24,213 nt of DNA from a virus: positions 1-24,213 of the IMG/VR virus record IMGVR_UViG_3300034198_012756, one strand, 5' to 3'. This document shows positions 7,080 through 20,534 of this stretch, in pieces; the stretch's first letter is position 1, and the number at the start of each line of letters is the position of its first letter. The position numbers and the translations under genes are program-made. A model generated the notes under the pieces. That model was given only the letters and a program-made list of their open reading frames with translations. It made no database searches and was not told the DNA's origin.

Positions 7080-7560
7080 TTTTATGGAAATCTTCTATTA
7101 CTTCATTAAGCATTTTAGACCATTTTGATCTGAGATCTTTGAAATGATTATATTTGATATCAGTTACTTCCTTAGATAAGTCATATTTAATTTCATCTAA
7201 AGTGATTTGATACATTCTATAATCACAAAAATATATTGCGTGGGCTAGAACCTCACGAAATACTTGTTTGTTTTTATCAACTACTCCATCTCCAGTGGTT
7301 TTATTTACCTTGTTATGATGATTCACCAAACAAAAATAATCATCTTTTAACTGAAATTCTATTTGATCGTCATCACCTCTTGACATCAAACACACAACCA
7401 TAAAATAATCTTGGAAATATTCTTTGACCCATACTTTATAATCTTCAAAAGACATAAGTGGGTTGATATCACCAAAGGATTTGAAAACTGGTGTTTCCTC
7501 TCTTTGGTAATTTTGCATCGCATAGTTTTGTGCAAGATCCAAGAATGATTCAATCTGCAT
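7057..7560 (-). CDS. Unknown protein in carbohydrate island (167 aa)
   Basis: I do not recognise this protein. It is soluble, charged and probably mostly helical, with an aromatic stretch (YFQDYFMVVCL) near the middle of the N-terminal half and an Asp/Glu/Lys-rich C-terminus. It overlaps the fused oxygenase gene by 23 bases and the first glycosyltransferase paralogue by 11 bases, so it is surely part of the same operon and may act on the same glycan. Confidence 0.7.
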   Translation of the reverse strand: MQIESFLDLAQNYAMQNYQREETPVFKSFGDINPLMSFEDYKVWVKEYFQDYFMVVCLMSRGDDDQIEFQLKDDYFCLVNHHNKVNKTTGDGVVDKNKQVFREVLAHAIYFCDYRMYQITLDEIKYDLSKEVTDIKYNHFKDLRSKWSKMLNEVIEDFHKNDKENSN

Positions 7561-8437
7561 ATTTAATATTTTCTAGGTCTTCTTCTAGAGGTGTAATAAT
7601 TCTATCATTTGATTTGCCATATGTAAAGAACTCCTCAAGAGTGTAACTATCTCTGAGTGTCATCCACCATTTTTTATAAGCTTTACGAGAAAAATTTAAA
7701 TCCAGTCGGTCTTTTTCTCTGGGAACATTATGTGCATAACTACCAATATCTTTATTGATTGTTATTAATGGGATGCAATAAGTTCTTCCACAATGACCCA
7801 AAAAATAATCCCCCGTGACATTAGGACTTCCCATTCCTTTGTAGAACCCATATCCAATTGGTGACCATTTGTAATTACAAATCGTTTTACTTAAATCAAA
7901 CTTACCATCTTCATAGTGAAGATCCATAAGTTTCTTAGCATATCTTCTATTAATTAAAGATGCCCCAGTACCGTGATTGGGGTGAATAGGATGTAAAAAA
8001 CAAGGAATTGATTTTTCATTTTCAAAACTTATTTGAATACAATCCCAATCATAAGGGATATTGTTCATCAAATAGTTCCAGTCAAAATGCCAATATTCAA
8101 TCAGACTTAGATCATAATCATCTTCCATAAGAAGAAGATACGGATCATTAGTAGTTTCCAACCAATTTTTAATCGTAATTAAGTAGAATAAAGATATAGA
8201 AATTTCAACAATATGATGACTTTTTTTCTTATAAGAATCCGAAATCTCATTTATAGTTACAATATCTTTCCATTCTTCATAATTAATGAGTTGATAATTG
8301 GATCCAGATATTTTTTTATAGTTTCGTATTCCCCAATAATCATACTGGATTTCTGTATACTCTTGTCTATCTTTTCTTTCATCAAGAGTCAACAAATATA
8401 TTGGTGGTAAATCTTTAAGTTTATTTTTGAGATCCAT
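7550..8437 (-). CDS. GT25-like glycosyltransferase, paralogue 1
   Basis: A 295-residue protein of the glycosyltransferase family 25 type. It has an N-terminal strand and basic motif (YLLTLDERKDRQEY, 14-27), then the acidic site LLLMEDDYDL with Glu105-Asp106-Asp107, expected to bind the metal and nucleotide sugar. The block HFDWNYLMNNIPYDWDCIQ is shared with the next paralogues. The C-terminus carries LEEFFTYGK. GT25 enzymes typically add galactose or similar sugars to lipopolysaccharide or protein. It is one of four tandem copies and overlaps the next by 17 bases. Confidence 0.85.
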   Translation of the reverse strand: MDLKNKLKDLPPIYLLTLDERKDRQEYTEIQYDYWGIRNYKKISGSNYQLINYEEWKDIVTINEISDSYKKKSHHIVEISISLFYLITIKNWLETTNDPYLLLMEDDYDLSLIEYWHFDWNYLMNNIPYDWDCIQISFENEKSIPCFLHPIHPNHGTGASLINRRYAKKLMDLHYEDGKFDLSKTICNYKWSPIGYGFYKGMGSPNVTGDYFLGHCGRTYCIPLITINKDIGSYAHNVPREKDRLDLNFSRKAYKKWWMTLRDSYTLEEFFTYGKSNDRIITPLEEDLENIKYAD

Positions 8438-9230
8438 CAGTATATAATTTGTAATCTTTCAATCTTATGAATTCATCATTTACTTTTCCGTGTTCTTCTT
8501 TTACCTTTCCATAAGTAAAGAAATTTCTTTTTTTGGATTCATCCCACTCTTTCCACCATTTGTCATAAGCATAACGAGTCAACTCATTACAATCATTGTC
8601 TATGATTATTGGTACAGCATAAGTTCTCCCACAATGAGTCAAAAAATAATTCAAAGGAACACCAGAACTATCCCATTTCCAATGACAATTAGAAATTTTA
8701 TGGAAAAAATTCACTTTATCATCCACAAAATGCAATGAAACTAATTTTTCTGCGTAATTTCTGTTTATCAAAGAAGGTCCGTGACCGTGAGAAGCCAAAA
8801 TTGGATGTAAGAAACAGGGAATAACATTTTCATTATTGAATCCAAGTTGAATACAATCCCAATCGTATGGAATATTCTTCATCAAATAGTTCCAATCAAA
8901 GTCAATATAACTTAGAAATCTAAAATCATAGTTATCTCCCATCACTATCATAAGTTTTTCGTCGGTTGTTTCCAACCACTTCCGAATAAACTTCATATAT
9001 GATAATTTAATTGCGGCTTGAGTTATTTCAACCTCCGTCTCCAATTGATGTGGACCAAGAATTAAGTCTTTCCAATCATCATAATTATCAACCGTATATT
9101 TTGACAAAGAAACTCTAGAAAATTCTTGGACTTCCCAATACTTCAATTGGGATTCCATATATTCTTTACGATCAGTTCTATCATCTTGATTTAAATAATA
9201 AATCTTTGAAATTCCTCTAAGATTTTCCAC
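8421..9230 (-). CDS. GT25-like glycosyltransferase, paralogue 2, with altered acidic motif
   Basis: A 269-residue copy of the tandem GT25-like family (YYLNQDDRTDRKEYMESQL at 11-29; FDWNYLMKNIPYDWDCIQ; FFTYGK near the end). The acidic motif that reads E-D-D in the three siblings reads Gly98-Asp99-Asn100 here. Two base changes, GAA to GGA and a GAT/GAC codon to AAC, would account for it. The protein may be inactive, have a changed metal requirement, or act as a partner. The start is a GTG at 9230, two bases after the TAA of the upstream paralogue; no strong ribosome binding site is seen. Confidence 0.8.
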   Translation of the reverse strand: MENLRGISKIYYLNQDDRTDRKEYMESQLKYWEVQEFSRVSLSKYTVDNYDDWKDLILGPHQLETEVEITQAAIKLSYMKFIRKWLETTDEKLMIVMGDNYDFRFLSYIDFDWNYLMKNIPYDWDCIQLGFNNENVIPCFLHPILASHGHGPSLINRNYAEKLVSLHFVDDKVNFFHKISNCHWKWDSSGVPLNYFLTHCGRTYAVPIIIDNDCNELTRYAYDKWWKEWDESKKRNFFTYGKVKEEHGKVNDEFIRLKDYKLYTDGSQK

Positions 9231-9232
9231 AA

Positions 9233-10051
9233 TTATCTTATAATTTTTAAAGTCATTTCGTGATCATATGGTTTTCCATATGTAAAAAAGTCTTCCAATG
9301 TAAACCATCCACTTCTTTCTCTCCACCAATAATAACAAGCAATCTTTGATAATAGATGATGATCTTTTGGATTCTCGTCTAAGTATGGATTTTGTGTGAG
9401 AATTGGTAAGGCATAAGCGCACCCATTTGACTGGAGATAATCGTCCACATCTATGGGATAAAACAGTCTACTTTGTCTAAATCTTCTGATCCTACCATAA
9501 TCACGAATTAGAAGATACTTATTCGCAATATAATGAAGTCTTACTAATTTTTCAACATAAAATCTGTTGAACAATGTAGGTCCATTGTATGAATGATGAG
9601 GTTTTTTATGTAAGAAGAATGAAATAGAATGATTTGAAGTATATCCCAACTGAATGCAATCCCAATCATAGGGGATATTATTCATCAAATAGTTCCAATC
9701 AAAATGCCAATAGGTGATTAAATCAAGATCCGTATCATCTTCCATTAGAATAAGATATGGATCGTCAGTGGTTTCCAACCAATTCCTAAGTGTTTCTAAC
9801 GTAGATAAAGAAACTGCAAGAGATCTATGAGTATGTGGTGCTTTCTCAAATGCTTCATGTTTATGCAACATGTGTTTCCAGTTATCAAATTCTTTTGCAA
9901 GAAATTTTGAAGAAGATACTCTTGTAAAATCCGCAATTCCCCACTTATCAAACTGGGACTCCATATATTCTTTACGATCAATTTTATGATCTAAATTAAG
10001 ATAATAGATGTGAGGAATTCCCTTGAGTTTATTTCTTAAATCAATTTCCAT
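9233..10051 (-). CDS. GT25-like glycosyltransferase, paralogue 3
   Basis: A 272-residue member of the tandem family, with YYLNLDHKIDRKEYMESQF (17-35) and an intact acidic motif ILMEDDTDLD (Glu104-Asp105-Asp106). It also has HFDWNYLMNNIPYDWDCIQ and LEDFFTYGK near the end. It is closest to paralogue 1 at the DNA level around the central block. The gap upstream (10052-10083) holds CATAAATT, a poor match to the late promoter box, 24 bases before the ATG. Confidence 0.85.
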   Translation of the reverse strand: MEIDLRNKLKGIPHIYYLNLDHKIDRKEYMESQFDKWGIADFTRVSSSKFLAKEFDNWKHMLHKHEAFEKAPHTHRSLAVSLSTLETLRNWLETTDDPYLILMEDDTDLDLITYWHFDWNYLMNNIPYDWDCIQLGYTSNHSISFFLHKKPHHSYNGPTLFNRFYVEKLVRLHYIANKYLLIRDYGRIRRFRQSRLFYPIDVDDYLQSNGCAYALPILTQNPYLDENPKDHHLLSKIACYYWWRERSGWFTLEDFFTYGKPYDHEMTLKIIR

Positions 10052-10083
10052 ATTAATAAAGTGGTCCTATAGAATAATTTATG

Positions 10084-10893
10084 TTAGTTATATGAAACTC
10101 TTAAAAATAGTTCTTCTTTTTTAGAATTGTCTAGGTAAAAAATATCTTCCAGTGAATACTGGGAACTTTTAGTTTTCCACCAGTCTAACACTACTTCATC
10201 AGATTTTTCAGCCATATAATTTGGACGACCATTACGATATCCATCACTCTCAAAAATTGAATTTGTAATAAAAATAGGAATGGAATATGTAATTCCCACT
10301 TGATACAAAACAAAATCTACTGATTGATAGTGATACTGTGGAAAATCTTTGCCGTATCCATAATTTGAACGAAAAACAAATTTATCTTGATAACGATAAA
10401 GTCTAATGAGTTTTTCCGCATAAGATCTGTTTATCAGAATACATCCAGTAGAATGATTATTTCTAAACCACTTTGAAAGATGCATCTGAATAAATCTTTC
10501 ACCAATGATGTGAAACTGAACGCAATCCCAATTATATGGAATATGTTTGATTAAAGTTTTCCAATCAAAAGTCCAGTACTGAACTGTATCCAAACAAAAA
10601 TCATCTTCAACTATTAAACAAGTTTCGGATGTATTGGAATTATACCAGTCAATAATTCCTTCAATTCTATCAATTGTGGTCGCTAATCTATGAATAGATG
10701 TTCTAAGTTTATCGGTGATTACTTTAGATTTCCATTCATCAAAATTATCTGTTGAATATCTTGATGAATGGACTCTTGTATAATTTTCTATTCCATATGT
10801 AGAAAATTGATTTTCAATATATTCTTTGCGATCCTTTCTATGATCTAAATTGAAATAATATATTGGAGGCAACCCTTCCAATTTCTCATTCAT
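10084..10893 (-). CDS. GT25-like glycosyltransferase, paralogue 4 (most divergent)
   Basis: A 269-residue member beginning MNEKLEGLPP. The motifs are YYFNLDHRKDRKEYIENQF near the start, the acidic site LIVEDDFCLD (Glu96-Asp97-Asp98) and a divergent centre, FDWKTLIKHIPYNWDCVQF. The C-terminal box is SLEDIFYL instead of LEDFFTYGK. The open frame extends to a TTG at 10902, but the ATG at 10893 forms an ATGA overlap with the upstream oxygenase and is the better start. The gene differs enough from the other three to have another donor or acceptor. Confidence 0.85.
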   Translation of the reverse strand: MNEKLEGLPPIYYFNLDHRKDRKEYIENQFSTYGIENYTRVHSSRYSTDNFDEWKSKVITDKLRTSIHRLATTIDRIEGIIDWYNSNTSETCLIVEDDFCLDTVQYWTFDWKTLIKHIPYNWDCVQFHIIGERFIQMHLSKWFRNNHSTGCILINRSYAEKLIRLYRYQDKFVFRSNYGYGKDFPQYHYQSVDFVLYQVGITYSIPIFITNSIFESDGYRNGRPNYMAEKSDEVVLDWWKTKSSQYSLEDIFYLDNSKKEELFLRVSYN

Positions 10894-12101
10894 ACAAACC
10901 AAGTAATAATAGAATAACGAGTTCCTTTTGTTACTGGCATAATTTCGTGAGGATACATAAAGTTTGATGGGAACATAATTGCAGAACCTTTTGGAGCACG
11001 AATCATAACTTCCCTATCAAAAAATGCAAACTCACCACCTTCATAATCATCATTCAGTTGAAAAGAACAAGAAACAGATCGTTGTTGTTCTTTGAATGAA
11101 TCGGTATGTTGTAGATAGAATTGACCTTCTTGATATCTTAGTAACTCATATCCAGTATCAATTTCAATTGCAAAGTTATTGAAATCATTATGATATGATT
11201 TCATTGCAAGAGAAGCACTTTCAAATAGTTTTTTATCAATGTTTGATCTTATCTCTGGATTTTTTTGAATTATAAACTGGTGTGATAAAGCTATTACGTT
11301 ACAACTTCTAACTTGATCATCAACTCTTCCACCAGATAATCTAGTTGGAGACCAATCATCAGAATCCACATATTCTTTTAGAAGATCGTCACAGAGATCT
11401 TCTGGAACAATATTATTATAGACTTTAATAAAAGAATCTAAAGTTGCAGTTGATGAATAAACAATTGGAGTTGAGGAAGTAGTAGTTTCTTCAATTTTTT
11501 CTTCACTTACTTTAACTTCAGATTTTGGTTGATTATTTGTTACGATACTCTCATTTACTCTATTGTCCCTAACTTTATCAAAATAAGCATAGGAACGACT
11601 GCCCCTACTTTGAACATAATGTAAAAATACTTGAGCGTACCAAGTACCTTCATATGCATCTCTCCAATGTTCTGCAGTGCATCCAAGATACATCATTGCA
11701 TCACCGGAATTCAAACTTACATAACGTTTTTCTCCTTCTGGAGTTTCAATCCAAATAGGCCAGGGTTTATCTCCATCCAAATGAAGAGTAAAAGAAATTT
11801 CACAAGCATCTCTGTCTTTGTGTTTTTCTAAAATACTTCCATTTTTATATACCCTAGAATAGGCATAAGTTGGTAATACGGTTTCTTCTAAAATTGAAGA
11901 TACCTCTGGAGTTTTTTCACAAAGAAGTTCAAGAAATGAAATATAATTTTCACTTGAATGTGAATTTAGTGCCTGGGCATCCCCATCTATATTATTCTCT
12001 TCAGAATATTTCTTATATTCTTCAGCAAGTTGTTTTGCTCTTTCCGTAGAAATAAAATTTGGAATAATTACATAATTATTCTTGATTAACTTTTCATTCA
12101 T
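10890..12101 (-). CDS. Protein with two 2-oxoglutarate/Fe(II) oxygenase domains
   Basis: A 403-residue protein with two double-stranded beta-helix oxygenase domains. The N-terminal domain (about 1-175) has His94-Lys-Asp96 and His145 (TAEHWRDAYEGTW). The C-terminal prolyl-4-hydroxylase-like domain (about 220-403) has YQEGQFYLQHTDSF with His332-Thr-Asp334, then GGEFAFFD, the distal His385 in MYPHEIMPV, and Arg395 for 2-oxoglutarate. A Ser/Thr/Glu-rich linker (about 180-220) joins them. Both iron sites look complete. Such enzymes hydroxylate proteins or small molecules; here sugars, lipids or tail fibres are candidates. It is the first gene upstream of the glycosyltransferase array, with an ATGA overlap. 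Confidence 0.88.
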   Translation of the reverse strand: MNEKLIKNNYVIIPNFISTERAKQLAEEYKKYSEENNIDGDAQALNSHSSENYISFLELLCEKTPEVSSILEETVLPTYAYSRVYKNGSILEKHKDRDACEISFTLHLDGDKPWPIWIETPEGEKRYVSLNSGDAMMYLGCTAEHWRDAYEGTWYAQVFLHYVQSRGSRSYAYFDKVRDNRVNESIVTNNQPKSEVKVSEEKIEETTTSSTPIVYSSTATLDSFIKVYNNIVPEDLCDDLLKEYVDSDDWSPTRLSGGRVDDQVRSCNVIALSHQFIIQKNPEIRSNIDKKLFESASLAMKSYHNDFNNFAIEIDTGYELLRYQEGQFYLQHTDSFKEQQRSVSCSFQLNDDYEGGEFAFFDREVMIRAPKGSAIMFPSNFMYPHEIMPVTKGTRYSIITWFV

Positions 12102-12122: not shown

Positions 12123-12506
12123 TTAAATTTGACTTAGTATATCTTCAATATTGAAAGAGTCTTCGTACTCAGCTCTATATTTTGCCAATTCTTCTTCCAG
12201 TTGTTTTTCTTTTTCCAATCTTTCTGCTTCTGATTTTGCAAAAAGTTCTTGTACTTTCTTTTCTTCCTCTAGAACTGTTGCATGTTTTTCTTGGAACATT
12301 GCAACTGCTTTTTGGTAAATTCCCAACTCTGTAATATCTAGATTTGGAACAGTCGTTCTGAATTCAATTTCACCGTGATCTTCATACCATTGAACAGCAT
12401 GAACTTGTTCCCCATCGTACTCTGGAATCCAACTTAGATCAAAGTCATGGTATCCAATGTTATCTACGGCAATAAAACCACTACCGGTCAATATCGTTAG
12501 TCTCAT
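12123..12506 (-). CDS. Tail-fibre-associated phage protein with coiled-coil C-terminus (127 aa)
   Basis: The N-terminal half holds small beta elements and the motif VHAVQWYEDHGEIEFR (about 35-50), a pattern seen in proteins next to tail-fibre genes in marine phages. The C-terminal half (about 70-120) is a long charged helix (EEEKKVQELFAKSEAERLEK and onward) likely to form a coiled coil. It overlaps the Cys4 protein gene by 26 bases, just downstream of the tail-fibre-tip genes. A fibre-assembly or chaperone role is an inference from position and shape. Confidence 0.6.
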   Translation of the reverse strand: MRLTILTGSGFIAVDNIGYHDFDLSWIPEYDGEQVHAVQWYEDHGEIEFRTTVPNLDITELGIYQKAVAMFQEKHATVLEEEKKVQELFAKSEAERLEKEKQLEEELAKYRAEYEDSFNIEDILSQI

Positions 12507-12886: not shown

Positions 12887-13426
12887 TTAGTTAAAACTGC
12901 AAGCAATAGTATCAATATATTGGCATCTTAAATCAATACTAGTACTCCACGGACCACTCCCAGTCCATGGGTGAGCGTGGCCAACATTAGCTCCATAACC
13001 TTGATAAGTACTATTAATTGGATCATATGATCCTGGTCTTCCCCAAGGTCCAGCATTAAAACTGCCATCTGGGTTTTGTGGAGCTTGTTGAAATCCACGT
13101 AACCCCGATGGGTGGTTATGACTGGGAATCATATTAACGTCAAGAGTGGTATTTCCTACAGTTCCAGCCACGTTTGCAGTACCAGAAATTGGTTTTGCGC
13201 CTGCATTCGGAAATGCACTTGTAAAGGAAATTGATCCGCCAGAACCACCACCAGTTCCAGATACTACTCTAAGTGCTTTATCATTATGTGTAGTTACTTG
13301 AGTCCAACCAGTTGGAGCAGAGGCCTGAAAGAAAATAGCTACGGAAGATTGAGGAATAAGAGTATATCTACTGGAATATGAAGTAGAATCCCCAAATGTA
13401 ATTCCTGATGCGTTTAAAATTGCCAT
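12887..13426 (-). CDS. Tail-fibre-tip / collar-like protein A (179 aa)
   Basis: One of three tandem paralogues. The N-terminal part is conserved (FFQASAPTGWTQVTTHNDKA about 32-51; then a Gly/Ser-rich strand and TVGNTTLD). Two His-x-His motifs follow, His103-Asn-His105 and His150-Ala-His152 (GHAHPW), bracketing a variable loop (106-147) rich in Gly, Pro, Asn and aromatics. The end, DLRCQYIDTIACS, is conserved. His-x-His pairs bind iron in the receptor-binding tip of T4 gp37, so a receptor-contacting fibre tip is likely. An AATAAATA box lies 21 bases upstream. Confidence 0.75.
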   Translation of the reverse strand: MAILNASGITFGDSTSYSSRYTLIPQSSVAIFFQASAPTGWTQVTTHNDKALRVVSGTGGGSGGSISFTSAFPNAGAKPISGTANVAGTVGNTTLDVNMIPSHNHPSGLRGFQQAPQNPDGSFNAGPWGRPGSYDPINSTYQGYGANVGHAHPWTGSGPWSTSIDLRCQYIDTIACSFN

Positions 13427-13447
13427 AACTAGTAATTCTCTTAGGAG

Positions 13448-13455
13448 TATTTATT
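13448..13455 (-). promoter_or_regulatory. T4-type late promoter box (AATAAATA)
   Basis: Lies in the gap between tail-fibre-tip genes B and A, 21 bases before the ATG of gene A, with one mismatch from TATAAATA. Confidence 0.5.
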
Positions 13456-13995
13456 TTAGGCTAAAGAACAAAAAATAGTATCAATATATTGACATCTCAA
13501 ATCAACGGTGGTGGAAAGACTCGCTGGACCAGACCAAGGATGAGTATGAGCCCCACTGTTTCCAGTTGAACTTGTCACATTACCAAAAACCTCTATATTA
13601 CCTGGAGCAACTCCCATAAATGGTCCACCACCACCTGGGGTAATACTGAAGGTGGGGAAGGCATTTCCTGGTGCAGATCCGTGGGAATGATTTGGAATTG
13701 TGTTAACATCAAGTGTAGTATTTCCAACTGTTCCAGTTACAGCGGCAGAACCAGAGACTGTCTTAAGACTGGCAGGAAATGCACTTGAAAAATTAATAGT
13801 TCCTCCAGTTCCACCGCCAGTTCCATTTACAACTCTTAGTGCTGCATCATTATTTACACTACTTATTGTCCATCCAGTTGGAGCAGAAGCCTGGAAAAAA
13901 AGAGCAACAGTACTCTGAGGGACGATCCCATACCTACTGTTTAGTGATGTCCCATCACTGAAAGTAATTCCACTTGAAGTAAGTACTGCAGCCAT
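13456..13995 (-). CDS. Tail-fibre-tip / collar-like protein B (179 aa)
   Basis: The second paralogue, with the same frame of conserved parts: FFQASAPTGWTISSVNNDA, GTVGNTTLDVN, His103-Ser-His105, His150-Thr-His152 (AHTHPW) and DLRCQYIDTIFCS. The loop between the two His-x-His motifs (106-147) is Gly/Pro/Phe-rich and unrelated in sequence to those of A and C. The scaffold beyond the loop is closest to A. Such conserved-ends, variable-middle proteins fit a role in host recognition. It has its own late promoter box. Confidence 0.75.
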   Translation of the reverse strand: MAAVLTSSGITFSDGTSLNSRYGIVPQSTVALFFQASAPTGWTISSVNNDAALRVVNGTGGGTGGTINFSSAFPASLKTVSGSAAVTGTVGNTTLDVNTIPNHSHGSAPGNAFPTFSITPGGGGPFMGVAPGNIEVFGNVTSSTGNSGAHTHPWSGPASLSTTVDLRCQYIDTIFCSLA

Positions 13996-14023
13996 AATAG
14001 TAGTTTATCAATCTTACTAAGTT

Positions 14024-14031
14024 TATTTATT
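14024..14031 (-). promoter_or_regulatory. T4-type late promoter box (AATAAATA)
   Basis: Found in the gap between genes C and B, ending 28 bases before the ATG of gene B and directly abutting the stop codon of gene C. Confidence 0.5.
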
Positions 14032-14544
14032 TTAATTTAATGAACAAACAATGACATTACTATATTTACATCTCAAATCAATTGAAGATGTTATTGTTGT
14101 AGAACCTGACCAAGGGTGAGCATGAGCACCACTATTACCATAAGTACCAGTACCTGCTTGCAATAAAGTATAACTGGCAGCAGCGGAAATAAGACTTCCC
14201 CCATTCAATGCATTTTCCCCTGATCCAGTGTTATGTTGGTGACCTGCCATAGTATTACCATCAATAGTGGTGTTTCCGACTGTTCCACTTACAGTGACAC
14301 CAGAGGAAAGTGGTGTTACAGCAGTAGGAAATGCACTCGTAAATGCAATAGAACCACCAGAACCAGCACCAGTCCCACTTACAACTCTCAAGGCTTTATC
14401 ATTGTGTGTAGTATTTTGTGTCCACCCACTTGGAGCTGAAGCTTGAAAAAAAGTCCAAGTAGTTGTTTGTGGGATAAGACCGTACTTAGAATTAAGTACG
14501 CTGTTATCACTAAAAGTAATTCCTGTTGAGGTTAAAACAGCCAT
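14032..14544 (-). CDS. Tail-fibre-tip / collar-like protein C (170 aa)
   Basis: The third paralogue and first in transcription order. It shares FFQASAPSGWTQNTTHNDKA, GTVGNTTIDGN, His102-Gln-His104, His141-Ala-His143 (AHAHPW) and a C-terminal DLRCKYSNVIVCS. Its variable loop (105-138) is shorter, rich in Gly, Ser and Ala, and unlike those of A and B. It is preceded by a perfect TATAAATA late promoter, consistent with late structural expression. Confidence 0.75.
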   Translation of the reverse strand: MAVLTSTGITFSDNSVLNSKYGLIPQTTTWTFFQASAPSGWTQNTTHNDKALRVVSGTGAGSGGSIAFTSAFPTAVTPLSSGVTVSGTVGNTTIDGNTMAGHQHNTGSGENALNGGSLISAAASYTLLQAGTGTYGNSGAHAHPWSGSTTITSSIDLRCKYSNVIVCSLN

Positions 14545-14572: not shown

Positions 14573-14580
14573 TATTTATA
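14573..14580 (-). promoter_or_regulatory. T4-type late promoter (perfect TATAAATA)
   Basis: An exact match to the T4 late promoter consensus, 28 bases before the ATG of tail-fibre-tip gene C. It overlaps the stop codon of the upstream oxygenase gene. Confidence 0.7.
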
Positions 14581-15154
14581 ACTGATCTGCATGAAGCCAT
14601 CCAGTACAGATATATTTAATTAAACCTTTGGAGGGACTTATTCCCCTATGTACATAGTTCCAAGTTGCAGGAAAGAAGAGTAATTTTCCTTGTTCTGGTT
14701 TTATTTTATCGCCAGAATAAAACTCAGTTTCTCCACAATCAATAACATCATTGAGATACCAAATAAAAGTTATAAATCTAGAACCCATCTTCAGATCAAA
14801 AAAATAATCGTGATGCCAATGATAAAATCCAGATCCACCTATGGTTTTTTGTATCTGATATCCACTATCAGATAAAGTTGTATGTGATAACATCTTGGGA
14901 TTTATGGTTTTCAGGTATGTTCTATATTCCTCTAATCCACTATTCAGGGATTTAAAAAATACACTATCATATTCTTTCCAATCATCCAATCCACTGATTG
15001 CTAAGTCTGTTGATACTTTAACTTTAGTATCTACTCTTTGAAGTCCAACTCTACCCTCATATTTGTTTGGATCTTTTTCAAATTTATCAATTACCTTTTC
15101 ACAGAAAGATTTATCCAAGGCATCTTTTTTGGTCCAAATAAGTTTATCTTCCAT
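14576..15154 (-). CDS. 2-oxoglutarate/Fe(II) oxygenase (prolyl hydroxylase-like, 192 aa)
   Basis: A single-domain oxygenase. The motif GFYHWHHDYF gives the iron ligands His114-His-Asp116; the distal ligand is His169 in NYVHRGISPSKG, and Lys180 may hold 2-oxoglutarate. The middle strands FITFIWYLNDV and CGETEFYSG match the prolyl-4-hydroxylase fold. Enzymes of this type are common in T4-like cyanophages close to tail-fibre genes; their substrates are not established. It starts in a TAATG overlap with the glycosyltransferase-like gene and ends at a late promoter that serves the fibre genes. Confidence 0.88.
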   Translation of the reverse strand: MEDKLIWTKKDALDKSFCEKVIDKFEKDPNKYEGRVGLQRVDTKVKVSTDLAISGLDDWKEYDSVFFKSLNSGLEEYRTYLKTINPKMLSHTTLSDSGYQIQKTIGGSGFYHWHHDYFFDLKMGSRFITFIWYLNDVIDCGETEFYSGDKIKPEQGKLLFFPATWNYVHRGISPSKGLIKYICTGWLHADQL

Positions 15155-17182: not shown

Positions 17183-17388
17183 AGTTTAATTCCCGTTTCT
17201 TTAGTGTCAATTTGAATATAAATGTCCTGACTGTCATTCCAATGATGAATGACCCCAGCACAAATGAATACATTAGTAATTAGGTAGGTTGCAAAGATGA
17301 TTGTTCTGACTATAGCAATCCTATCAGATTCTTTATTGCATTTACTTGCTTTTTGTCCTAGTGATTTAGCCCACACCCTCCACATCAT
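17179..17388 (-). CDS. Small membrane protein (69 aa)
   Basis: An amphipathic basic N-terminus (RVWAKSLGQKASKCNKESDR) is followed by a single hydrophobic segment (about 27-47: VRTIIFATYLITNVFICAGV), then HHWND and a polar tail. The frame opens at a TTG (17391); ATGs at 17388 and 17385 follow a GAGGGG ribosome binding site. The similar size and plan of membrane proteins in other cyanophages suggests conservation; no function is known. Confidence 0.7.
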   Translation of the reverse strand: MMWRVWAKSLGQKASKCNKESDRIAIVRTIIFATYLITNVFICAGVIHHWNDSQDIYIQIDTKETGIKL

Positions 17389-18034
17389 CAATACCCCTCT
17401 CTTTCTTTGATTTTACACCAGTCCATACTTGTTCGTCAAGCCAATACTGTTCCACATATTTGATATACTTTTTATTTGGATCTTCGGTAATAAAGTTGAA
17501 TATCTCTGGATTATTGTAGTCAACTGGAAAATCTAGTGTTTTACTTACCCACTTAAGATAGTGTTCTCTATGCAAAAATAATGCTTCATTATCTAAGAAA
17601 TGAACTTTAAGATCACTGTGCAGTAAAGTATTATAGTAATAATATTGTGCGATTGGTGTTGTTACTTCCCCACGAACTCTTAATTGTTGTTGTTCATTAA
17701 TGTTCTTATCTCTTACAATGATTGCAATTTGAACATCAACACCAAAAGACTTTGCACATTCTGCAACTTCCAAAATCTTTGGAATGTATCTTTGTCCATC
17801 ATAAAAGAATGGGCAACTAACATTCGCAAGAAAATAATTGGAATTCTCAAACATTTCTTCAGTTAATCTTTCTGGATATACCCAGAATTCTGCAAAAGGT
17901 TCTTCATCACTGGGAACCCAATACTTTTTGATTAAACTTTCCCATCCAGAAACTTCTGGATGAATACTGAATATTCTACTGAACAAATGATTACCAGAAC
18001 CTTGAGGTCCGGTTATAATGAGAAGTTTCTTCAT
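17366..18034 (-). CDS. Sulfotransferase-like P-loop protein, copy 1 (222 aa)
   Basis: The N-terminal strand and loop LLIITGPQGSGNHLFSRIFS (4-23) match the 5'-phosphosulfate-binding loop of sulfotransferases, and equally a P-loop kinase. IIVRDKN (105-111) fits the 3'-phosphate-binding strand. The following QQQLRVRGE segment is shared with its neighbour. The expected reaction is transfer of sulfate from PAPS to a hydroxyl or amine, perhaps on a glycan. It is a paralogue of the gene directly upstream, with an ATGA overlap between them. Confidence 0.7.
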   Translation of the reverse strand: MKKLLIITGPQGSGNHLFSRIFSIHPEVSGWESLIKKYWVPSDEEPFAEFWVYPERLTEEMFENSNYFLANVSCPFFYDGQRYIPKILEVAECAKSFGVDVQIAIIVRDKNINEQQQLRVRGEVTTPIAQYYYYNTLLHSDLKVHFLDNEALFLHREHYLKWVSKTLDFPVDYNNPEIFNFITEDPNKKYIKYVEQYWLDEQVWTGVKSKKERGIDDVEGVG

Positions 18035-18663
18035 TTTGGAAGGTCTTTCAAAGGTATTCCAGTACGATTACAATTATCCAAGACATAATCATTCACGGAA
18101 TGAACGTACTTGTCATTTGGATCTTCCTCTAGTATATCATTAATTTTTGAATTATTCCAGTCAATTGGAATACCTACATCCAATGACTTCAAATAATCCT
18201 GTTTATAGAGGTACAATAACTCATAACTTAGGAAGATTGGATTAGGAAACTTCGGAAGTTGTGACATAAAATGATGTAATGTACTTTCTCCACGAAGTCT
18301 GTTTTGTTGGTGTCTAAGAATATTTTGATCTCTACCCACTACAACGATCTGAGTTTCAATTCCCAATTCCTCCACAGCATTCACAAATCCCATAATATCT
18401 GGTTCCCATTTAGTATCTTGAATACCCAATGGAATACTGATGCTTGTAAAGAAATACTGGTGAGTAGACCAATCAAATTCTTTGAGTAAATTATGATCTC
18501 TCCAACATTTACAAAATGGTTCCGCAAACCTATGAGCTTCCCAATAATTCTCCAACAAACTCTTCCATCCAAAGACTTCTGGATGTAAGGAGAATATTTT
18601 AGACCATAAATGATTACCCGATCCCTGTGGACCAGTAAGTAGCAATATTTTTTTTGAATTCAT
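18031..18663 (-). CDS. Sulfotransferase-like P-loop protein, copy 2 (210 aa)
   Basis: A paralogue of the 17366-18034 product: LLLTGPQGSGNHLWSKIFSL (7-26) and VVVGRDQNILRHQQNRLRGE (107-126), with a shared EDPNDKYVHSV region near the C-terminus that matches EDPNKKYIKYV in the sister copy. Both likely arose by tandem duplication. The 5' end overlaps the upstream gene by 50 bases in another frame. The acceptor cannot be read from sequence. Confidence 0.7.
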   Translation of the reverse strand: MNSKKILLLTGPQGSGNHLWSKIFSLHPEVFGWKSLLENYWEAHRFAEPFCKCWRDHNLLKEFDWSTHQYFFTSISIPLGIQDTKWEPDIMGFVNAVEELGIETQIVVVGRDQNILRHQQNRLRGESTLHHFMSQLPKFPNPIFLSYELLYLYKQDYLKSLDVGIPIDWNNSKINDILEEDPNDKYVHSVNDYVLDNCNRTGIPLKDLPK

Positions 18664-19522
18664 CTAATTTCACCATCCACATTTTGTAAGCAACAGAAAT
18701 AACTTTTTCGTTATATCCTTCTAATCCCAATAAATCATATAAGTTTTTAATATTTTCTAAGGTATCTTTTTCCGTCAAGAACCATTCTACATTCCAGGTA
18801 TGAAAAATTTTATCAGGATATTTTTCAGTAAGAATTCTCATATCATGAGCTTTCCACGGTTTTACTGGTTCTTCATTAAAATCATCATCATCAGTATTTT
18901 CAGTAACAGGAAATAAACCAGTTCTTACATCATTTTTCTTTAGAGCATCCAATTTTCCATATTGTTCAAAAGTAATGGGTAAAAATTCTTCATCCATTCC
19001 GTTATAACCATAACCATATCTTATTTTTTTGAAGAGATTAGAATTTTCAAAAAGAATAACATGTTTAGAATTATTCCAAAACTCCAAAGATTGTTCAACT
19101 TCGTTTCCGGTCAAAGGATGTAATTTCAACAATATAACAGTATTATTAGAATTAATCAAGTCATCAGGGTTCTCATTAACCTGAAGGTGCATACAAAAAT
19201 AATCATTCCAAATTCTACCTTTTTCCTTGAGCAATGTTTCACGAAAATATGAAAGTTTCTGTTTTAAACTAAGATTTCTAAAATTAACACTATTTGAGAA
19301 AGTTAAACAATTGATTAAAAAATTAGCCCCATCACCACCTGGATGAGATACGGTTACTATTTTATCACATTTTCTATCAACTTTATATAATCTATGAGGA
19401 TTCTTTATCATATCATTTGTTAACTTATTATTCTCATAATGATAACTAACACTACTCCCCCGACTAGCTCCACTACCGTCATTAAAATACATCAAATGCA
19501 TTTCGTTAGTATTATTTCCCAT
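18614..19522 (-). CDS. P-loop-like protein, related to the next upstream gene (302 aa)
   Basis: Residues 54-75 read KIVTVSHPGGDGANFLINCL, a glycine-rich loop followed by a helix like the nucleotide-binding loop of sulfotransferase-type folds. The C-terminus (HTWNVEWFLTEKDTLENIKN, then LYDLLGL) matches the end of the neighbouring 19527-20534 product, so the two are paralogues. The N-terminal 50 residues are polar and extra. A sulfotransferase or other group-transfer role is possible but unproved. An AATAAATA late box lies 24 bases upstream. Confidence 0.6.
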   Translation of the reverse strand: MGNNTNEMHLMYFNDGSGASRGSSVSYHYENNKLTNDMIKNPHRLYKVDRKCDKIVTVSHPGGDGANFLINCLTFSNSVNFRNLSLKQKLSYFRETLLKEKGRIWNDYFCMHLQVNENPDDLINSNNTVILLKLHPLTGNEVEQSLEFWNNSKHVILFENSNLFKKIRYGYGYNGMDEEFLPITFEQYGKLDALKKNDVRTGLFPVTENTDDDDFNEEPVKPWKAHDMRILTEKYPDKIFHTWNVEWFLTEKDTLENIKNLYDLLGLEGYNEKVISVAYKMWMVKLDEFKKNIATYWSTGIG

Positions 19523-19526
19523 GAAA

Positions 19527-20534
19527 CTACCCTTCTTTGTTAAGACTATTTATTTTTATTTCATCCAATTTATCTATCCACAAATCATAATACTTTGATA
19601 TTTTATCTTCATTAAACTCAGTAAGTTGTAACAGATCATATATTTTTTTAATATTCATCAACGTACTTTCTTTAGAAAAATACCAATTAACATTCCAATC
19701 ATAAATTGCATTTACATTTTCATCTTCTTGAGAAAACTCTTCAGCAAATTTTTCTTCAATTTTAATTTTCAATTCTTCTGGATATGAAATATATCCTCTC
19801 AATGTTTGTGGGGGAGTTTGTTCCCAATCATCATCTCTCAATTTATTCCATATGAATTCAAAACTATCTTTTTTACGTTGTTCTTTGACTTTTTCCACAA
19901 ACTCAGTATTTCTGAGATTTAGTTTAATGTCACTATGAATTTGTTTTGGAAACTTTGACATATTCTCCAGAGAAAGAAAACTACCTTTTACATTTTGATA
20001 GTATTCTGGCCAAGAACTTTTATCAATAACATCCCATACTGTGGCAATTTTTTGAGAATACCAATTTCTAATTTTATAAAAAAGGTTACCCCTAGAAAAT
20101 TTAATTACTTTTGCATTTTTCCAAAGATTTAACACCAAATCAAGTTCTACTTTTCCATGTGCAGTTAAAAATAAGTATTTTGTACTTTCATTTGTAACTT
20201 TAATTAAAACAGGGTTATCTTTGAACTTTTCAATATTAATTTGACTACAAGGAAATCTACAATCATCCTCAGATGATATTCCAAAAAGTCTATAATCACA
20301 AAGACCAAGATCATCCCATTTGGTATTTGGAACCATCTCCATTCTTTTATGGAGAAAAGATACTTTTTTATCAAAATCAAAATTATTTTCTAATTGAAGT
20401 TGAACCAAACGATTATGTTGGAAGAATACTTCTTTACTGAGACCAAGAGAATTTATTAAAAACTTACCTCCGTGACCTGGATCAAAATATACTACAATAA
20501 CTTTATTATAATCAAAATTAATTTTACTTTCCAT
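19527..20534 (-). CDS. P-loop-like protein, related to the next downstream gene (335 aa)
   Basis: Residues 12-31 read VIVVYFDPGHGGKFLINSLG, a glycine-rich loop and helix shared with the 18614-19522 product. The C-terminal part (DWNVNWYFSKESTLMNIKKI, then YDLLQL) is also shared. The middle is lysine-, aspartate- and aromatic-rich and has no recognised domain. Proteins with P-G-x-G-G-x-F-L-I-N openings occur in marine phages, usually unannotated. It may be a sulfotransferase-like enzyme; confidence in function is low, in the gene high. Confidence 0.6.
   Translation of the reverse strand: MESKINFDYNKVIVVYFDPGHGGKFLINSLGLSKEVFFQHNRLVQLQLENNFDFDKKVSFLHKRMEMVPNTKWDDLGLCDYRLFGISSEDDCRFPCSQINIEKFKDNPVLIKVTNESTKYLFLTAHGKVELDLVLNLWKNAKVIKFSRGNLFYKIRNWYSQKIATVWDVIDKSSWPEYYQNVKGSFLSLENMSKFPKQIHSDIKLNLRNTEFVEKVKEQRKKDSFEFIWNKLRDDDWEQTPPQTLRGYISYPEELKIKIEEKFAEEFSQEDENVNAIYDWNVNWYFSKESTLMNIKKIYDLLQLTEFNEDKISKYYDLWIDKLDEIKINSLNKEG
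19547..19554 (-). promoter_or_regulatory. T4-type late promoter box (AATAAATA)
   Basis: Lies inside the last codons of the 19527-20534 gene, 24 bases before the ATG of the 18614-19522 gene. Confidence 0.4.

Follow-up and report, generated by a model that had tools for sequence, protein, structure and literature searches.

Tandem standalone tail-fiber tips with diverged loops and a conserved four-cysteine partner gene in a probable T4-like cyanophage

Little is known, to our knowledge, of the parts with which marine T4-like phages bind their receptors. A 24,213-base IMG/VR virus record, analyzed here over its whole length (the window) and probably derived from a T4-like virus of ocean cyanobacteria (cyanophage), carries three tandem genes on the minus strand whose products have similar ends and dissimilar middles. 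These genes are designated T1, T2 and T3 in the order of transcription. Their occurrence raises the question of what such proteins do, why one phage would keep three of them, and whether their variable parts arose by exchange or by slow divergence.

T1, T2 and T3 (Table 1) share a common scaffold, with overall pairwise identities of 54-58%, reaching 61-68% in the segment before the His-x-His (HxH) pairs and 48-63% in the segment after them. Each protein contains exactly two HxH motifs (HNH/HAH, HSH/HTH and HQH/HAH), an arrangement that arose by chance in 17-85 of 20,000 composition-preserving shuffles. The loops between these motifs were 19-33% identical, which is at chance level (29.5 +/- 6.1% for shuffled loops). 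A preliminary description of this locus, made from the sequence, had reported three proteins with one scaffold and a loop between two HxH pairs, and coordinates, strand, sizes and identities all confirmed it. The loop does lie between the two pairs, but its length had been given as about 34-42 residues and was measured as 36, 44 and 44 in T1, T2 and T3.

Table 1. Tip genes, neighboring genes and promoter-like sites in the window (L numbers are loci of relatives)
Feature	Position	Strand	Details
Late-promoter-like TATAAATA, upstream of T1	14573..14580	-	Motif search
Tip gene T1, 170 aa	14032..14544	-	HxH at 14233-14241 and 14116-14124; 36-residue loop 14125-14232
Late-promoter-like AATAAATA, upstream of T2	14024..14031	-	Motif search
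Tip gene T2, 179 aa	13456..13995	-	HxH at 13681-13689 and 13540-13548; 44-residue loop 13549-13680
Late-promoter-like AATAAATA, upstream of T3	13448..13455	-	Motif search
Tip gene T3, 179 aa	12887..13426	-	HxH at 13112-13120 and 12971-12979; 44-residue loop 12980-13111
C4 (four-cysteine protein), 123 aa	12481..12852	-	Next gene after T3; CPLIKKxC..CAWY..RG.(N/D)PNTGEDxD.WGC..AVESFRNE
Third module gene	12123..12506	-	Tail-assembly-chaperone domain Phage_tail_APC (PF16778) present in relatives from L028, P-SSM2 and CRP-361
2OG-Fe(II) oxygenase, downstream of module	10890..12101	-	Same order in L016, L017, L026, L087 and L175
2OG-Fe(II) oxygenase, just upstream of array	14576..15154	-	Common to the three-tip locus L175; also in L088

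In IMG/VR, 410 relatives were detected and 80 loci kept from these; a second scan was queried with the neighboring gene. At least two HxH motifs were present in 180 of 181 distinct tip domains. In an alignment of 72 diverse homologs, taken from the two-HxH set (a filter that dropped only one of the 181), the four HxH histidines (H103, H105, H150 and H152 of T3) were invariant, as were A37, P38, L52 and R53. Column entropy peaked in the loop (2.76 bits vs 1.66 and 1.47 in the flanks), and in homologs the loop site accommodated insertions as long as 365 residues. Two forms of the domain were found. In one it makes up the C-terminus of long fibers, such as the fiber of Roseobacter phage CRP-361 and the collagen-like P-SSM2_028; in the other it is a standalone protein of approximately 160-205 aa, encoded in tandem arrays of two or three genes. 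Two-tip and three-tip arrays with the same flanks as in the window recurred among the relatives, and T2 was 44% identical to SSCSM1_244, a tail fiber protein of Synechococcus phage S-SCSM1. Another protein of that phage, S-SCSM1_95, which is of similar size and also tagged as a tail fiber protein, proved to lie outside the HxH tip family.

Searches of T1, T2 and T3 against Pfam, PHROG and NCBIfam gave no match, and in Pfam and PHROG the long-fiber relatives matched just Gp10_C, below threshold, and, weakly, PHROG tail families. Several arrays among the relatives had features of their own. In some tandem pairs (L004:9542-10807, L116, L135, L136, L139, L142, L145 and L157), the second tip contained an insert of 275-365 residues exactly between the HxH pairs; most of these inserts were 24-29% Arg and Pro-rich, with almost no Lys. 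Three-tip arrays in L087, L088 and L175 were syntenic with the window, and the neighboring C4 protein was 72-75% identical in them, whereas tip scaffolds were just 37-44% identical.

The tip profile matched two solved tail-fiber proteins, 9qgo (1.5e-11) and 9nxk (6.8e-7), and these alignments retained the two HxH pairs. Together with the presence of the domain at the ends of long fibers and a layout of the T4 gp37 type, these matches support the earlier view of the three proteins as tail-fiber tips. The T4 gp37 sequence, read directly, has HxH motifs on both sides of a segment of approximately 33 residues between EHSHY and NHSHT; comparison of gp37 with the tip profile by hhalign detected no similarity (probability 0.9%). 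An AlphaFold2 monomer of T3 (mean pLDDT 78.6, pTM 0.49), a single-chain model that is unreliable for an intertwined trimer, placed long strands at residues 78-90 and 152-164 on either side of a low-confidence HxH-loop region. The best Foldseek matches of this model included the fiber tip 6ov6 and the fiber 9nxk of phage Pa223, all weak (E 0.3-1.1). No paper citing 9QGO or 9NXK was found in the literature collection searched.

These comparisons suggest how a tip might be built. Each would probably be an intertwined homotrimer, with a collar made of the N-terminal ~100 residues and a strand that descends to the first HxH. The loop of 36-44 residues would be the head that contacts the receptor; beyond it the chain would pass back via the second HxH, and the C-terminal ~27 residues would close the trimer. 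On the model of T4 gp37, whose HxH pairs bind iron, each HxH level may bring six histidines around a single metal ion, giving two ions per trimer. A collar-needle-head protein of vibrio phages, similar to gp37 and to C24 of a Bizionia argentinensis prophage, was proposed to bind its receptor via the head (PMC12028318). The C24 tip has itself been likened in structure to that of T4 (PMC11821841).

S-SCSM1 offers a hint that such tips may be parts of the virion. Its standalone tip SSCSM1_244 is annotated as 'tail fiber protein (virion protein)', one of about 48 CDS with virion tags in that record. Mass spectrometry of purified S-SCSM1 virions is reported to have identified 45 proteins (PMC9602691), and because this number is close to that of the tagged CDS, the tag most likely denotes detection in virions. 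By this analogy, it is plausible that the tips of the window are built into virions. The second tip of S-SCSM1, its C4 (S-SCSM1_246) and its third gene are without the tag; C4 is small, and small proteins are easily missed. With the tag on just one of two tandem tips, some copies may be left out of the virion. The tips could instead be adhesins, soluble or on the cell surface, that are produced in the course of infection; this would fit short standalone proteins whose gene neighbors are of glycosyltransferase-like, oxygenase and epimerase type and not structural. We regard this as highly improbable in view of the S-SCSM1_244 tag, the use of the same domain to end long fibers, the adjoining gene of a tail-assembly-chaperone family, and the late-promoter-like sites described below.

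The motif WATAAATA, which resembles the T4-type late promoter, occurred six times on the minus strand of the window and zero times on the plus strand. All six sites were located 29-36 nt upstream of gene starts, in zones that make up 11% of the window, and three of the six belonged to T1, T2 and T3. The perfect TATAAATA had its single occurrence in the window ahead of T1, the first gene of the array. Among standalone tip genes elsewhere (104 distinct), 41 had [ATC]ATAAATA within 80 nt upstream, compared to 5% in mononucleotide shuffles. The proposal that each tip gene has its own late promoter thus holds at the level of a sequence motif, and all three tips would probably be expressed late, which could allow their simultaneous use, perhaps in the mixed fibers that the preliminary description proposed.

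Other genes of the window are likewise organized in tandem. Positions 7550-10902 contain four consecutive paralogs that resemble proteins of phage S-SCSM2R annotated as family-25 glycosyltransferases and encoded next to the same genes, and this glycosyltransferase-like cluster accompanies the tip arrays of relatives. Two pairs of tandem paralogs were found upstream of the array (17366-18663 and 18614-20534); the former pair, which starts with a TGPQGSGNH P-loop-like motif, was conserved in L016 and L026. In addition, positions 1078-1665 encode a protein with a low-complexity N-terminus rich in Thr, Lys, Pro and Ala (TTTTTTRKPAARKPATATKKPTT).

The preliminary description suggested that the array might serve as a store of alternative tips, with loops swapped by recombination through the constant ends; such swapping would permit rapid host switching. 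At first sight this agrees with unrelated loops on like ends, and recombination at the gp37/C24-like tip of vibrio phages was linked to a receptor switch (PMC12028318). The DNA of the array argues against it. Between copies of the array, the longest exact tracts measured 18 and 14 nt. At residues that the copies share, codons agreed no more often than expected by chance, and they are saturated. The three genes are therefore old paralogs and poor substrates for homologous recombination.

Relatives outside the window's own lineage allowed loops and scaffolds to be compared at shorter distances. Among standalone tips with scaffolds 80-90% identical, loops were 83% identical on average, and all 60 pairs had loops at least 65% identical. 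In contrast, long-fiber relatives at the same scaffold identity had loops only 30-39% identical, which is chance level, in 6/6 pairs. Unrelated loops on near-identical scaffolds were thus found in none of the 60 standalone pairs and in all six long-fiber pairs. In these sequence comparisons, wholesale loop replacement was seen in the long-fiber class, to which it appears confined, whereas standalone arrays appear to diverge gradually. The term hypervariable, previously applied to the loops, is apt when T1, T2 and T3 are compared with each other but not among related standalone tips, whose loops are conserved. The preliminary description had itself counted loops that are invariant across related phages as evidence against its proposal, and the standalone class largely shows this pattern, because its loops co-diverge with their scaffolds and its tip groups match groups of the flanking oxygenases. 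With wholesale replacement in long fibers as a point in its favor, the exchange of loops within such a store nevertheless appears improbable for the window.

A tree based on the scaffold alone revealed two ancient paralog types in two-tip arrays. These types were position-stable, with type-specific and conserved loops, and T1, T2 and T3 grouped together near the second tip of L017. Groups in the tree of type-2 tips were the same as groups in the tree of flanking 2OG oxygenases. The window has no resolved place in the 2OG and C4 trees, and thus no conflict between tips and flanks emerged in this test for exchange of the whole array as a cassette. One trace compatible with exchange came from T3, whose loop scored 17.4 bits against the loop profile of the type-1 paralog, the best of 2,000 shuffles reaching 16.8 and six such comparisons having been made. 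This likeness runs through a common NPDGSFN stretch. As the T3 loop resembles a type-1 loop on a type-2 scaffold, a point that would suit loop swapping, a single ancient exchange is possible. The T2 loop was not significantly similar to the type-2 loop profile (p 0.07).

The same position-stable types and type-specific loops would be expected if the tips cap different fibers or virion sites as fixed, subfunctionalized parts, rather than recognize alternative receptors. In agreement with such a division of labor, the two tips of S-SCSM1 are strongly different, one of them having a 284-residue Arg/Pro-rich insert. However, all three scaffolds of the window belong to one type, so that position-specific roles would need rebuilding. 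In addition, the N-terminal tip segment of approximately 20 residues, sought in the other proteins of S-SCSM1 as a sign of an attachment partner, was found in tips alone. We consider fixed roles at different sites rather unlikely, if worth keeping in mind. Our preferred reading, which we hold with fair confidence, is that T1, T2 and T3 are standalone C-terminal receptor-binding tips, old paralogs whose loops have diverged for different receptors. The array would have been inherited vertically, its loops coming to fit different receptors or receptor variants.

C4 was a very regular neighbor of the tips. It was located within 1.2 kb downstream of the tip gene in all 74 tip-found viral loci with room for it, and within 100 nt in 66. 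Conversely, when C4 was the query, 76 of the 80 viral loci recovered had a tip upstream. As many viral loci are near-duplicates, a scan of bacteria and archaea served as an independent test of this pairing: by profile, a tip gene was upstream of C4 in 26 of 27 loci from many lineages, and the 27th (L200) had an HxH-bearing ORF. The four Cys residues of C4 were 99-100% conserved among 112 distinct sequences. C4 had no family match in Pfam, PHROG or NCBIfam, its structure model was of low confidence with no fold match, and these family and fold searches revealed no homology to a known fiber chaperone. Nor was a paper on the family found in the literature collection searched. A relative of the third module gene often followed C4 in other loci; the PF16778 domain was not detected in the window's own copy.

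The gene order suggests that C4 is probably a dedicated tip-assembly factor. Arrays of two and of three tips, whose loops are unrelated, each have one C4 gene, which therefore presumably acts on the constant scaffold. In Hyphomicrobium (L199:2580-3419), a tip domain has lost both HxH pairs yet kept the scaffold and an adjoining C4 gene, which favors a role in folding over one limited to metal loading. A different arrangement was observed in S-SCSM2R, where C4 (L168:6001-6390) lies in a window-like neighborhood without adjoining tips and the tips are found at a distance of approximately 38 kb, in the company of genes with baseplate annotations. Gene order also suggests that one downstream pair, C4 and the tail-assembly-chaperone-like protein, may serve in the folding of all three tips. 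A broader proposal, that the HxH tips of many tailed phages and prophages depend on the downstream C4 family to fold the tip trimer or load its metal, seems to us evenly poised between true and false. If true, one C4 would serve a whole array of unrelated heads, and heads could diversify with the assembly machinery unchanged.

These data describe a recognizable tip domain together with its variable head and the arrays of its genes, for which Pfam, PHROGs and NCBIfam gave no dedicated family match. They also distinguish two ways in which heads evolve, by replacement in long fibers and by gradual divergence in standalone arrays. If C4 is a needed assembly factor, it would be the missing ingredient for laboratory production of such tips, as well as a marker for receptor-binding genes in metagenomes.

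Among known systems, the T4 gp37 tip (PDB 2XGF) has the same C-terminal position and HxH motifs flanking a distal segment of ~33 residues (36-44 in the window), but gp37 has seven HxH motifs instead of two and is a long fiber subunit, whereas the window tips are standalone proteins of 170-179 aa. A dedicated chaperone gene (gp38) adjoins gp37, and a candidate chaperone gene likewise adjoins the window tips, although neither C4 nor the PF16778-type gene had a family match to gp38-type chaperones. For the T3 model, Foldseek ranked the B. argentinensis C24 tip (PDB 6OV6) first, albeit with a weak match (E 0.31, probability 0.33), and no sequence match to the window tips was found. The tail fiber of Alteromonas phage R22Y is also an HxH fiber of a marine phage, proposed to bind iron, but its HxH sites are in the N-terminal part and not in the tip (PMC11705849). 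Both 9NXK, the tail fiber of Pseudomonas phage Pa223, and 9QGO share the HxH-loop-HxH segment matched by profile; their solved chains are longer (215 and 434 aa) and their loops unrelated. In P-SSM2, a C-terminal tip is followed by C4, a PF16778 chaperone and PiuC (P-SSM2_028 with PSSM2_029/030), similar to the window, but the tip is fused to a collagen-like shaft and present in a single copy. In S-SCSM1, tandem standalone tips (S-SCSM1_244/245) precede C4 and further 2OG oxygenases, as in the window, with two copies instead of three and the long insert in one loop. The fold family is thus already known; the window tips are its standalone, tandem variant, and their unnamed four-Cys partner is the main new point.
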